DNA of 38,284 bases from Candidatus Parcubacteria bacterium (GTDB lineage: Bacteria > Patescibacteriota > Microgenomatia > Levybacterales > GWA1-39-11), in assembly GCA_003599595.1 (NCBI GenBank), contig QZIP01000048.1, forward strand, positions 1 through 38,284. The letters are read 5' to 3'. The translations under genes were made by a program, and so were the position numbers. Positions 16,206 through 30,386 of the stretch are shown here, piece by piece. Position 1 is the stretch's first letter, and each line of letters opens with the position of its first letter. The notes under the pieces were generated by a model that saw nothing but the letters and a program-made list of their open reading frames with translations, was not told the origin of the DNA and did no database searches.

Positions 16206-16442
16206 ATGTTTTACACATATGTTCTAAAGAGCAAAAGGGATGACAAGCTATATGTAGGACATAGTGATAATTTAAAGAATAGAATTCAAAAACACAATAA
16301 AGGATTGGTAAAATCTACAAAAGACAGGAGACCTTTGCAATTGATGTATTACGAAGCCTGTTTGAATGAGAGTAAATCGATTAAGAGGGAACAGTACTTT
16401 AAAACTGGTTTTGGAAGAAGGTTTTTGAAAAATAGAATATAA
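16206..16442 (+). CDS. Small GIY-YIG endonuclease, upstream of tRNA-Lys
   Basis: A 78-residue stand-alone GIY-YIG domain (YhbQ/URI type). YTYVLKSKRDDKLYVGHSDN carries the paired YxY...YVG motif, NLKNRIQKHNKG supplies the conserved Arg and His, and the Glu of KREQYFK (about residue 62) completes the metal site; it ends in GFGRRFLKNRI. All catalytic positions are kept. No DNA-binding module is attached. The gene ends 84 bases before tRNA-Lys, and a paralogue follows on the other side of the tRNA. No Shine-Dalgarno; the mRNA leader would be very short. Confidence 0.92.
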   Translation: MFYTYVLKSKRDDKLYVGHSDNLKNRIQKHNKGLVKSTKDRRPLQLMYYEACLNESKSIKREQYFKTGFGRRFLKNRI

Positions 16443-16480
16443 TAATATCCGTAGTCTCGTAGTATTGGTTTGTGAAATGC

Positions 16481-16531
16481 GGCCCCCGCCCGCCACGCAA
16501 GCCGAGCCTGACGAGGCGTTGCGGGAGGGCC
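16481..16531. repeat. GC-rich stem-loop whose 3' arm enters tRNA-Lys
   Basis: GGCCC, CCCGC and CGC blocks at 16481-16498 pair with GCG, GCGGG and GGGCC at 16516-16531, with a bulge and a two-base mismatch, around an inner GCCT/AGGC hairpin. The 3' arm includes the first bases of the tRNA acceptor stem. Confidence 0.6.
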
Positions 16532-16602
16532 GATAGCTCAATTGGCAGAGCAAAAGCCTTTTAAGCTTTTGGTTCCGGGTTCGAGTCCCGGTCGGCTCAC
16601 CA
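16527..16602 (+). tRNA. tRNA-Lys (anticodon TTT)
   Basis: Acceptor GGGCCGA pairs with TCGGCTC (one G-T), the D-stem is GCTC/GAGC, the anticodon stem AAAGC/GCTTT closes loop CTTTTAA (anticodon TTT), the T-arm is CCGGG-TTCGAGT-CCCGG, discriminator A, and CCA is encoded at 16600-16602. Both ends take part in larger palindromes with outside sequence. Confidence 0.95.
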
Positions 16603-16640
16603 AGCTAAGCTTGGTGAATATCGAGCTCAGCTCGATCACC
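16598..16640. repeat. Two perfect triloop hairpins after tRNA-Lys
   Basis: CACCAAGC-TAA-GCTTGGTG (16598-16616) includes the tRNA 3' end CACCA in its left arm. ATCGAGC-TCA-GCTCGAT (16620-16636) follows and is itself framed by GGTG/CACC. The second GIY-YIG ATG comes three bases later. Confidence 0.85.
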
Positions 16641-16643
16641 ATA

Positions 16644-16916
16644 ATGTATTACATTTATATTTTATTCTCGGATAAAGATAAACAACTTTATACAGGATTT
16701 ACAGATAATCTCCGCTCACGATTTAAAGCTCATACTGAAGGATACGTCAAGGCAACTAAGCATAGAAGGCCAATAAAACTAATTTATTATGAAGAGTATC
16801 AATCTGAGTCGGATGCGAGAAGAAGAGAAAAATACTTAAAAGGTGGGAATGGACGGAAAGAATTAAAAATACAGCTTAAAGATATATTTACCGAACTTAA
16901 ATATAAAAATCTTTAG
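16644..16916 (+). CDS. Small GIY-YIG endonuclease, downstream of tRNA-Lys
   Basis: 90 residues from the ATG at 16644 (MYYIYILFSDKDKQLYTGFT); longer frames would begin inside the tRNA. YIYILFS...LYTGFTDN, RFKAHTEG, YYEEY and RREKYLKGGNGRKELK are the conserved blocks, with the catalytic Tyr pair, Arg and Glu present. It is clearly paralogous to the gene on the other side of tRNA-Lys and to the pair at tRNA-Glu. Stand-alone nucleases of this kind act on DNA; its natural target is unknown. The hairpins just before the ATG leave no room for a Shine-Dalgarno. Confidence 0.92.
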   Translation: MYYIYILFSDKDKQLYTGFTDNLRSRFKAHTEGYVKATKHRRPIKLIYYEEYQSESDARRREKYLKGGNGRKELKIQLKDIFTELKYKNL

Positions 16917-28044: not shown

Positions 28045-29034
28045 ATGAATATATTAGTGGTAAAAGACAAAAATCATTTTCCAATCACATCATTCAACTC
28101 AGATCACGCAAAATTAATCAAAAAGGCCTATCCAGAAGCAAAAATTGACACCATTGACAACATTTCATCAGAATCTTCACAGCAGTTTCTTAAACAAGCA
28201 GACGTTATGATTCTTCCCACCTCACTTCTTAATACCGTAAATTTTAAAAAGACGACATCTCTCAAATGGCTGCACATTACATCTGCAGGAGTTGACAAGC
28301 TTCCGGATGAAATCCTGCGCTCATCCATCATTGTCACCAACTCGTCCGGAGTACATCCTATACCTATTGCAGAGCATGTATTTACCTTTATGCTTATGTT
28401 TGCAAGGCAACTTCACAAGTCATACAGACAGCAAGTTGAGAAAAAAACTTGGCTCAGGACATCAGACTTTCTCCCAACAACAGAAGTTTATGGAAAAACT
28501 ATTGGAATTGTCGGGCTGGGAAGAATTGGCAAAAGAATTGCAAAAGTTGCCAAAGGGTTTGATATGCAGGTGGTCGCATTAACCAGGACCAAGCATAAAA
28601 AAGAAGATAATGTTGATAAACAATATACAGACAAAGACGTAGATAAGTTATTAAAAGCCTCAGATTTTGTGATTGGCTGTCTGCCCGGAACAAAAGAGAG
28701 CAATCACTTTTTTGATTTGAAAAAATTTTCCAAAATGAAGCCCACGGCCTATTTTATCAACATCGGCCGCGGCAAAACCGTGAATGAAAAAGATCTTATT
28801 AAAGCATTAAAGAAAAATATAATTTCAGGAGCGGGTTTGGATGTTTTTGAAGAAGAGCCTTTACCAAAAGACAGCCCCTTGTGGGATCTTGAAAACGTCA
28901 TTATCACCCCTCACTATGCAGGCTGGACCCCCTATTATCTTGATAGGGTAATTGAAATATTCTCAGAGAATTTAAAAGCTTACGCAAAAGACAACCCAAT
29001 GCCCAATTTAATCAATAAAACAAGAGGCTATTAA
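28045..29034 (+). CDS. D-isomer-specific 2-hydroxyacid dehydrogenase
   Basis: A 329-residue NAD(P)-dependent dehydrogenase that interconverts a 2-hydroxyacid and a 2-oxoacid. The NAD fold starts at TIGIVGLGRIGKRIAKVAKG (152-171) with GxGxxG; the catalytic set is Arg242 (INIGRGKTVNE), Glu271 (DVFEEEPL) and His290 (IITPHYAG). The N-terminal catalytic domain ends with the hinge LKWLHITSAGVDKLP. Length and motif order match the family (close to GhrA/SerA-type members); no ACT domain, so not a typical SerA. Substrate cannot be told. A TATAAT at 28008-28013 gives a 25-30 base leader without Shine-Dalgarno. Confidence 0.93.
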   Translation: MNILVVKDKNHFPITSFNSDHAKLIKKAYPEAKIDTIDNISSESSQQFLKQADVMILPTSLLNTVNFKKTTSLKWLHITSAGVDKLPDEILRSSIIVTNSSGVHPIPIAEHVFTFMLMFARQLHKSYRQQVEKKTWLRTSDFLPTTEVYGKTIGIVGLGRIGKRIAKVAKGFDMQVVALTRTKHKKEDNVDKQYTDKDVDKLLKASDFVIGCLPGTKESNHFFDLKKFSKMKPTAYFINIGRGKTVNEKDLIKALKKNIISGAGLDVFEEEPLPKDSPLWDLENVIITPHYAGWTPYYLDRVIEIFSENLKAYAKDNPMPNLINKTRGY

Positions 29035-29160
29035 TCCTAAGCAGCTCCTAACTCCTAGGTTAATAATTTCAGATCTTAACAATACAAATTCATATTCTTG
29101 CATAAATGGCTTCAGCTTTGGTAAAATAGAATTAGATAGAGATTTAGCTCTAGTCTGTGA

Positions 29161-29235
29161 GCCGCGTTCGTTCCCGATGGTAGTTTTCATACGGGATCCC
29201 GATGACAACGATCATCGGGGCTAGTGGCCCAGGAC
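29161..29235 (+). pseudogene. Broken copy of the tRNA-Glu 5' half, split by a double hairpin
   Basis: GCCGCGTTCGT (29161-29171) and CTAGTGGCCCAGGAC (29221-29235) match tRNA-Glu bases 1-26 with one mismatch, but 49 bases are inserted between them. The insert is two hairpins that both open with TCCCGATG (29172-29196 and 29197-29219). The next nuclease gene starts five bases after the fragment. Confidence 0.8.
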
Positions 29236-29239
29236 TAAA

Positions 29240-29494
29240 ATGTTTACGACATATATACTAAAAAGTGAGAAAGATGGTAGATTTTATATTGGTAGTACAG
29301 GTAATATTTCTGAAAGAATAATAAGACACAATAAAGGATACTCAAAATACACTAAAGGGAAGGGTCCTTATAAATTAATTTATAAAGAAGATTATAATAC
29401 TTTAGCTGAAGCAAAAAAGAGAGAGTATTATTTAAAATCATTAAAAAGTAAGGTTGCAATTGAAAAAATAGTAAATAGAGCCGCGTTCGTCTAG
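29240..29494 (+). CDS. Small GIY-YIG endonuclease ending inside tRNA-Glu
   Basis: 84 residues: TTYILKSEKDGRFYIGSTGN, RIIRHNKG, LIYKEDY, KKREYYLKSLKSK. The GIY-YIG Tyr/Gly pattern, Arg and Glu are present. The last six codons (NRAAFV, TAG) are read from the first bases of tRNA-Glu (29480-29494), so the reading frame borrows its C-terminus and its stop from the tRNA. Just upstream is a partial tRNA-Glu copy. Family members usually end in similar basic or variable tails, so activity is possible. No Shine-Dalgarno is seen. Confidence 0.92.
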   Translation: MFTTYILKSEKDGRFYIGSTGNISERIIRHNKGYSKYTKGKGPYKLIYKEDYNTLAEAKKREYYLKSLKSKVAIEKIVNRAAFV

Positions 29495-29553
29495 AGGCCC
29501 AGGACGACTGGTTTTCAGCCAGTAAATCAGGGGTTCGAATCCCCTACGCGGTA
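29480..29553 (+). tRNA. tRNA-Glu (anticodon TTC)
   Basis: Acceptor GCCGCGT pairs with ACGCGGT (one G-T at the end), the anticodon stem ACTGG/CCAGT closes loop TTTTCAG with anticodon TTC, and the T-arm has AGGGG-TTCGAAT-CCCCT. Discriminator A. CCA is not fully encoded (ACCG follows). The 3' acceptor strand is followed directly by its inverse, forming ACGCGGT-ACCGCGT. Confidence 0.94.
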
Positions 29554-29689
29554 CCGCGTCAAACGCGGCTTCGCCCAAGAAGCCAAGTTTGAAACCACGT
29601 CAAACGTGGTTTAGCGTGTCGCGTGTGACGCGACGACTAACGAAATATATTTTTATGGAAACGTTTGACGTTTCCTCGCTTTCAGCGAG
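29546..29689. repeat. Chain of six perfect hairpins between tRNA-Glu and the next GIY-YIG gene
   Basis: In order: CCGCGT-CAA-ACGCGG (29554-29568); GGCTTC/GAAGCC with a six-base loop (29567-29584); a nine-bp stem AAACCACGT / ACGTGGTTT with loop CAA (29592-29612); GTCGCGT-GTG-ACGCGAC (29618-29634); GGAAACGT-TTG-ACGTTTCC (29657-29675); CTCGCT-TTC-AGCGAG (29675-29689). Four share the core CGT-N3-ACG. The last two lie inside the next gene. Confidence 0.92.
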
Positions 29690-29972
29690 ATATTACGTAT
29701 ATATTTTATACTTTTATAGTGATAAGGGTTTCTACATTGGATTTTCCACAAACTTGAAAGATCGCTTAATAGATCATGCCAGCGGAAAAGTATTCTCAAC
29801 AAAAGATAGAATTCCATTCAAATTAATCCACTATGAATATTTCATTAATAAAAAAGATGCAAAAGCAAGGGAAGAATTCCTTAAAAGTGGATATGGAAGA
29901 GATCAGCTTAAAAATTTTCTAAAGAATACACTTCTAATGATTAAGGGTAGCAGGAATACAAAAGCTAAATAG
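29655..29972 (+). CDS. Small GIY-YIG endonuclease after tRNA-Glu, N-terminus encoded by hairpins
   Basis: 105 residues from ATG 29655. The first 11 codons (METFDVSSLSA) are made of two perfect hairpins, and the true domain starts RYYVYILYFYSDKGFYIGFS. NLKDRLIDHASG, LIHYEYF and AREEFLKSGYGRDQLK complete the GIY-YIG pattern with the catalytic Tyr, Arg and Glu present. A longer frame from 29589 reads through the other hairpins and is rejected. It is the fourth paralogue in the window and the second at tRNA-Glu. Confidence 0.88.
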   Translation: METFDVSSLSARYYVYILYFYSDKGFYIGFSTNLKDRLIDHASGKVFSTKDRIPFKLIHYEYFINKKDAKAREEFLKSGYGRDQLKNFLKNTLLMIKGSRNTKAK

Positions 29973-30206
29973 ACCCTATTCTTAATATATCTCAACAAGC
30001 GTTCAAGCTCTTTTTCTAAACAATTATATTAAATGACTCCTCCAAAGAATTTTGTTTACAGAGGTAAAACTACATTAAAAACCATGCTTAAGGAATATTT
30101 TGAATCCATAAAGAAATAGTTTGTACTGAGTTTGTTGAACCTAGGTTCGTAAACGAAGTGCACCACTCAGGTATAATATCTGTCTAGGAGGGAGGTGTAC
30201 GAAAAG

Positions 30207-30350
30207 ATGCGAACCTATCATCATTTAACGCTTGAGGAAAGAGAAAAATTCCTTCTTCGATATCAAGTAAGGTATAATACAATTACATCAAGTGGTATAC
30301 TTCAACTGCGAATGAAGGAAATTCTTTATGACCAACTAACAAACCTATAG
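30207..30350 (+). pseudogene. IS30-type transposase remnant, N-terminus only
   Basis: MRTYHHLTLEEREKFLLRYQ is the start of IS30 family transposases (M.YHHLT.EERE). After about 20 residues the similarity stops and the frame ends at TAG 30348-30350 (47 codons). The Shine-Dalgarno AGGAGGGAGGTG is preserved, as is TATAAT upstream (about 30173). A 28-codon frame at 30034-30120 (MTPPKNFVYRGKTTLKTMLK and on) precedes it; I cannot place it. These two scraps are all I see in 29973-30386. Confidence 0.75.
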
Positions 30351-30386
30351 TTTGTAATTATTTGTATTTTTTGATACAATTTATGA

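Follow-up and report, generated by a model that had tools for sequence, protein, structure and literature searches.

Genes for tRNAs are common integration sites and are known as docking sites for large islands. The closest analogue of the locus described here appears to be the mobile endonuclease ORFs (mORFs) of fungal mitochondria, reported from atp6 of Allomyces and from atp6, atp9, cox2 and nad3 of Glomus (PMC3630166). In the accessible part of that account, an endonuclease ORF enters an essential gene, brings a replacement 3' part and displaces the native part, and the atp9 case involves a GIY-YIG enzyme. The mORF targets are mitochondrial protein genes, whereas the elements described here sit in bacterial tRNA genes, displace one half or the other, and have a palindromic hairpin at the junction. 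SegB, a free-standing GIY-YIG homing endonuclease of phages, promotes recombination and amplification (PMC13096335). Its gene adjoins tRNA genes, it is thought to cut in tRNA-containing DNA, and the tRNA 5' region shares microhomology with the segB 3' region; it is, however, a phage gene beside a tRNA gene, and neither a displaced tRNA half nor a hairpin is among the features described in the available part of that report. In the bacterial group to which our genome belongs, CPR rRNA insertion sequences with homing endonucleases carry GIY-YIG ORFs in inserts that match neither group I nor group II introns (PMC11270868). Those inserts, as far as the accessible text goes, target rRNA and are removed from transcripts, whereas the tRNA elements restore their target by a second copy. 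A search of the open literature, mainly of titles and the first lines of abstracts with few subscription papers and no preprints, returned no account of a bacterial GIY-YIG element that both breaks a tRNA gene and restores it.

Here we analysed a 38,284-nt stretch of DNA (hereafter, the window) from Candidatus Parcubacteria bacterium (GCA_003599595.1, contig QZIP01000048.1, forward strand). It holds what is probably a minimal mobile element inside tRNA-Glu genes, belonging to a bacterial homing-type GIY-YIG family that breaks a tRNA gene and carries the missing half. Set beside the large islands, this element would measure ~400 bp, encode one 84-aa protein and rebuild the gene that it breaks.

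Organisation of the unit and its hairpin

The genome, of which the window is contig 10, is ~1.4 Mb in size, and its closest named relatives at the unit are Candidatus Levybacteria and other Patescibacteria. The unit (29161-29555, all features on the forward strand) consists of tRNA-Glu nt 1-11, a 49-nt double hairpin, nt 12-26, four bases, a GIY-YIG gene and an intact tRNA-Glu(UUC), in that order. A -10-like TAAAAT box found by eye just 5' of it (29122-29127) is probably the promoter of the resident tRNA, and a TATAAT/TAAAAT-like box is similarly placed 5' of most aligned units. The nt 1-11 piece (29161-29171, GCCGCGTTCGT), probably the displaced 5' end of the resident tRNA, is an exact match to 29480-29490; in other units the corresponding piece departs from the intact tRNA and is similar to the acceptor of the resident. 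The double hairpin (29172-29220, arms 29173-29195 and 29198-29219) separates it from the D-arm piece, nt 12-26 (29221-29235), which is identical at 14 of 15 positions, and on its own scores higher than any of 200 shuffles. The initial annotation had thus been right that the first 26 bases of tRNA-Glu are present twice; the broken copy it placed at 29161-29235 is a real partial copy, but the double hairpin between its pieces had been overlooked.

The GIY-YIG gene (29240-29494) lies between the two copies and ends inside the tRNA, as had also been noted: its stop codon TAG (29492-29494) is nt 13-15 of the intact tRNA-Glu (29480-29555; predicted by ARAGORN, Rfam tRNA 58.3 bits), a gene restored and probably imported together with the element. 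Between the tRNA copies there is room for the GIY-YIG ORF only, and no integrase gene is found there. Rfam models detected the tRNA alone in window 28900-30100, plus one sRNA match at 14.5 bits, far below its cut-off; a group I or II intron is ruled out, there being no recognisable intron RNA around the ORF in this interval.

The 84-aa protein matches PF01541 (51.1 bits, cut-off 22.6) and is thus a member of the GIY-YIG superfamily, its only Pfam family; NCBIfam and PHROGs gave no match. It is a single domain with no extra domain and no separate DNA-binding part. Y5, Y16-x-G18, R26 and E62 are invariant among nine sequences, and we take the conserved Tyr, YIG, Arg and Glu positions to have the roles that they have in I-TevI. 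The AlphaFold2 model (mean pLDDT 84.9) has UPF0213, Slx1 and I-TevI as its nearest solved folds, and profile matches to solved structures gave the UPF0213 proteins 1zg2 and 1ywl, followed by SLX1 and I-TevI.

A covariance model (R1, with the window among its source sequences) places the hairpin at 29171-29221 with 73.5 bits. Two adjacent hairpins are backed by covariation, with 95.6% of cells pairing and slid controls far lower; 6 of 16 pairs change on both sides, a count reached by 4 of 500 shuffles. Covariation gives no support to one long hairpin in place of two. Among 281 genomes of the class, 18 have a match to the model; strong matches are mostly at tRNA-Glu units, and the weaker ones are lone. 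Lone double hairpins of ~50 bp occur twice in the same genome (L237, C26:5103-5155; L238, C17:19932-19982) and at L215, L230, L234, L239 and L242, mostly in AT-rich DNA, and from their sequences they look as if they were a separate small palindromic repeat. A cobalamin riboswitch, suspected by eye around the lone hairpins in L059 and L060, is not claimed, Rfam being below threshold there.

Filled and empty tRNA genes and the wider nuclease family

With window 28045-30380 as the DNA query, 99 related genomes gave matches bounded by the unit (query 1117-1510, i.e., window 29161-29554; 70-77% identity) with unlike flanks, and the ~390-bp unit was found in unrelated flanks in other Patescibacteria. 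Such recurrence in independent genomes rules out chance or an assembly artefact. Among 12 tRNA-Glu units compared, the window's included, the order of elements and the position of the hairpin are common to all, and in most the reading frame runs into the tRNA, the protein ending in AAFV, GPIV, AAIV or similar before TAG. The exceptions are L027, in which the script found no intact frame, and L032, which stops later within the tRNA. A second unit in the same genome, on contig 3 (C3) at tRNA-Glu(CUC), is 96% identical over the left 102 bp and does not have the middle of the nuclease gene, which was apparently deleted between two AAAAAGT repeats.

As read from these alignments, the unit is mobile and inserts inside the tRNA gene. 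Genomes G016 (filled) and G048 (empty) have a common upstream gene, a terminator-like stretch and a TATAAT box; the tRNA-Glu follows the box directly in G048, and the unit lies in between in G016. This orthologous empty site, at another locus than that of the window, is without exactly the equivalent of 29161-29479, the interval predicted in the initial annotation to be missing from an empty site, and the pair bears out its view that the gene invades the tRNA in its 5' portion, with an intact tRNA remaining on the 3' side. No empty orthologue of the window's own locus was found; four loci with a match to the upstream dehydrogenase gene (L024, L033, L034 and L046) have no tRNA-Glu in the stretches compared.

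Displacement of the resident part is best seen where the two copies differ. At the tRNA-Glu(CUC) locus, the empty G038 has the acceptor GGCCCCA; the left fragments of the filled orthologues read GGCCTCA (C3), GGCCCCA (G002) and -GCCCCA (G006), and the acceptors of the intact tRNAs GCCGCCA (C3) and GCCGCTA (G006). Left and right heptamers are identical in five of the 12 units, the window's among them, and different in seven, and in 11 units the right heptamer pairs 7/7 with the 3' acceptor of its own tRNA (the script mis-cut the remaining one, L022). In seven of the 12, then, the acceptor stem of the restored tRNA is not that of the displaced remnant, which is consistent with conversion, though no proof of it. 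A simple target-site duplication, the original explanation of the repeat, is not supported in that form, since the outer fragment is the resident's remnant wherever the copies differ; the window's locus cannot separate the two, because its copies are identical.

The partial copy passed a shuffle test at 6 of 11 tRNA-Glu loci with the gene, the others being split by the hairpin, and 14 of the 16 loci without the gene have no fragment. The two that passed (G029 and G057) have a tRNA-Glu 5' part, no nuclease gene and then an intact tRNA with a different acceptor, with a remnant-like trace of the nuclease gene seen by eye in G057; they are probably scars. A fragment without a nuclease gene, which would have counted against the initial proposal, is thus not the rule.

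A mirror type was found at tRNA-Ala in the Flagellimonas/Allomuricauda group. Among 20 stretches of the orthologous locus, from 20 of the genomes with matches, six carry a GIY-YIG gene, two hairpin remnants only, and 12 neither; the hairpin is present in 6/6 of the gene-bearing stretches and in 0/12 of those with neither. Elements are in tandem in L201 (two) and L190 (three). In the empty G157 (L188), tRNA-Ala is followed by the terminator ACCATCC..GGATGG; in the filled G140 (L200), this same terminator comes after the 3' half of the pseudo-copy, and a new one follows the intact tRNA. There, tRNA nt 45-75 occur twice, 468 bp apart, an insertion of 468 bp within tRNA-Ala. The resident terminator after the pseudo-copy, together with this repeat, implies insertion inside the tRNA gene by an element that brings the missing half. 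A partial tRNA-Ala copy passed the shuffle test at 5/5 loci with the gene, 2/2 with remnants and 1/12 without the gene, the last being L188 with a 20-nt imperfect match; L190 was excluded, its stretch holding no intact tRNA. Thus, like free-standing homing endonuclease elements, these units are inserted and absent at orthologous sites (G048/G016, L188/L200 and 12 of 20 Ala stretches) and, like fungal-type mORFs, they replace a displaced part of the target while the native part stays. Isolates with a mirror-type unit are Flagellimonas amoyensis, F. pelagia, Mucilaginibacter terrigena and Paludibacter sp. 221. In G099 (C9:508778-518265; L157 and L161), an island of ~8 kb with a 49-bp tRNA repeat at its borders seems to interrupt the tRNA-Ala locus; it may be a conventional island in this tRNA.

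The breadth of the family had not been part of the initial annotation. We scanned 84,980 genomes with a profile from an alignment of nine proteins and took the best 80 of 90 relatives, picked by protein similarity alone. A same-strand tRNA gene lies within 450 bp in 64 of these 80, none has a tRNA on the opposite strand only, and 16 have no tRNA within that distance (six of the 16 have <320 bp of sequence upstream of the gene). The neighbouring tRNAs are of many isotypes, in Patescibacteria, Bacteroidota, Ignavibacteriota, Desulfobacterota/Myxococcota, Nitrospirota, Zixibacteria, Cloacimonadota and others. The partial copy was sought beyond the nuclease gene as seen from the tRNA, one locus being too short to test; among these best 80 of 90 relatives, the cognate tRNA beat all 60 random non-cognate tRNAs as its source at 48 of 63 testable loci and failed at 15, several split tRNA-Glu copies among them. 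Several tRNA-Glu units go undetected in this generic test, their copy being split by the hairpin, and those units rest on the alignment. Many partial copies are a tRNA with a palindromic hairpin (TCCCGAT..ATCGGGA or alike) in place of the anticodon arm; examples include Asp L096, Lys L143, Val L112, Asn L110, Glu L129, Pro L094 and Met L095.

The intact tRNA can be on either side of the nuclease gene, depending on the locus. Within the best 80 of 90 relatives, 27 loci have the tRNA 3' of the gene, and in 18 of them the stop codon falls among tRNA nt 1-30, so that a 3' end not overlapping the tRNA, the other finding that would have spoken against the initial proposal, is likewise not the rule. 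In 36 loci the tRNA is 5' of the gene; 12 of these have the stop codon in the D-arm of the downstream copy and six more, by eye, in the hairpin.

On a protein tree of 61 proteins and 81 columns (three short rows dropped, few forks firmly resolved), tRNA isotype changes 23 times (shuffled mean 40.1; 0 of 200 as low) and the side of the tRNA seven times (20.2 when shuffled), so that nuclease lineage tracks tRNA type. Well supported are an 11-row all-Glu set from several candidate phyla and a 3-row Gly set. Phylum labels are clustered as well (21 changes vs 34.1), indicating that descent and transfer are mixed. An origin as a prophage gene is not supported: the viral_contigs scan found no relative, and phage records held 14 distant ones with <60% identity. 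Plasmid records held five relatives.

Possible mechanism and alternatives

We infer that the nuclease cuts, that repair proceeds by homologous recombination (homing) and that the hairpin is a cis signal of the element. The enzyme would cut an uninterrupted tRNA-Glu gene in the D-arm, at about nt 11/12, and host recombination would repair the break from an element-bearing copy, with flanking tRNA sequence as the homology. The resident's first 11 nt would remain on the left under the old promoter, followed by the hairpin, the D-arm piece and the nuclease gene; with a complete tRNA-Glu on the right, the insertion would be harmless. Mirror-image elements would insert in the anticodon arm; the resident 3' half would then stay on the right, and the element would supply a new one along with a terminator. 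Because such homing would act through tRNA homology, the element would go with tRNA type, the displaced piece would be the resident's, the restored tRNA could differ, tandem copies could arise and either half could be displaced. The presumed target is still contained in the element's intact tRNA, so simple homing gives no account of the protection of filled sites. Also counting against the proposal are the single 84-aa domain with no separate DNA-binding part, the 16 relatives with no tRNA nearby, the 15 loci that fail the cognate test, the small GIY-YIG genes of this genome that have no cognate partial copy, and the imperfect match at the element-free L188. Homing through tRNA homology does not explain the hairpin either, which may be a separate small repeat picked up by the element or the element's own signal.

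More tentatively, and with the balance of our judgement against it, the family could form a bacteria-wide 'break-and-replace' class, in which each lineage is aimed at one tRNA type and swaps host tRNA genes for imported ones, with the palindromic hairpin, located where the tRNA is broken, signalling recognition or protection to an Slx1-like GIY-YIG nuclease. If true, the mechanism would differ from both classical intron homing and known transposition, and it would offer a route for horizontal replacement of essential tRNA genes.

The hairpin could alternatively be the moving part, recognised by a structure-specific, Slx1-like GIY-YIG protein and carried, with or without the gene, into single-stranded DNA able to form hairpins, for example tRNA arms, much as RAYT proteins move REP palindromes. 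We regard this as unlikely. Its attraction lies in the position of the hairpin, which in either mirror type adjoins the displaced tRNA half, in the covarying two-hairpin fold, in the similar double hairpins without the gene elsewhere in this and related genomes, and in Slx1 being among the nearest solved folds. The inserts, however, supply tRNA halves by which a tRNA of the same type is restored, in keeping with recombination via tRNA homology, and lone hairpins are few (18 of 281 genomes have any match) and may belong to an unrelated repeat family. The TCCCGAT..ATCGGGA palindromes, at 0-6 single copies per genome in 12 Flagellimonas-group genomes with or without the element at tRNA-Ala, are about as common where it is absent. 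Palindromes are present, as REP/RAYT-type mobilisation would have it, but GIY-YIG is the only Pfam family of the protein, which is no Y1 tyrosine transposase.

It is more improbable still that the truncated tRNA with its hairpin is kept as an RNA, a regulator or decoy for a tRNA-cleaving GIY-YIG RNase in a toxin-antitoxin-like or T-box-like arrangement. The cognate tRNA type, the same-strand order and the conserved hairpin agree with such a role, and the leader folds better than shuffles (z -2.9), as does the L143 pseudo-copy (z -3.8), but the pseudo-copies L096, L097 and L112 fold little or no better. Moreover, one acceptor-stem strand is missing from the partial copy in the cases read, the partial copy is missing along with the gene at empty sites, and the displaced half runs directly into the resident terminator or promoter, like a broken gene. 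Least credible is ordinary tRNA-site integration by a tyrosine recombinase, with the nuclease gene as a passenger or left-over, for although tRNA genes are common integration sites and a 49-bp tRNA repeat seems to border the larger island at the same tRNA-Ala in G099, the units are just ~320-470 bp without an integrase, no integrase-bearing relative with these ends was seen among those compared, the intact tRNA can be on either side, and similar small units occur in several phyla.

An element that breaks a tRNA gene and carries the missing half would explain the small 'GIY-YIG nuclease family' genes near tRNAs, the truncated tRNA copies and the unequal acceptor stems among orthologous tRNA-Glu genes. 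It would also be a small system for a direct test of target choice by a single-domain GIY-YIG protein.

Other GIY-YIG genes in the same genome

The genome has 45 tRNA genes above the Rfam cut-off and 19 PF01541 matches, 14 of them with open frames <150 aa. Ten of these 14 small genes lie within 170 bp of a same-strand tRNA (binomial 1.4e-17, genes that share one tRNA not being independent), and a cognate partial copy was found beside 5 of 11 testable ones. The best is at L013 (C6:3859-7077), where tRNA-Gly(UCC) nt 1-35 are repeated exactly just upstream of a GIY-YIG gene and the full tRNA-Gly lies 152 bp downstream, likely a further element of the tRNA-breaking kind.

Within the window, a second, different GIY-YIG gene lies 3' of the tRNA-Glu (29655-29972), with several short hairpins with GTCAAAC-like loops in between (by eye); no cognate tRNA fragment was found beside this gene. 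The tRNA-Lys (16527-16602) has a GIY-YIG gene on each side on the same strand (16206-16916), and no tRNA-Lys fragment was detectable there for either gene. A stretch resembling, by eye, a remnant of the start of an IS30-type transposase lies at 30142-30350, and 30142-30247 is 83% like C3:6377-6481 of the same genome. At L244 (C1:56700-57960), a tRNA-Glu is followed by several degenerate tRNA-like sequences (weak Rfam tRNA matches) and then an ORF that we presume to resemble a TROVE/Ro60 protein, a possible Y-RNA-like locus.
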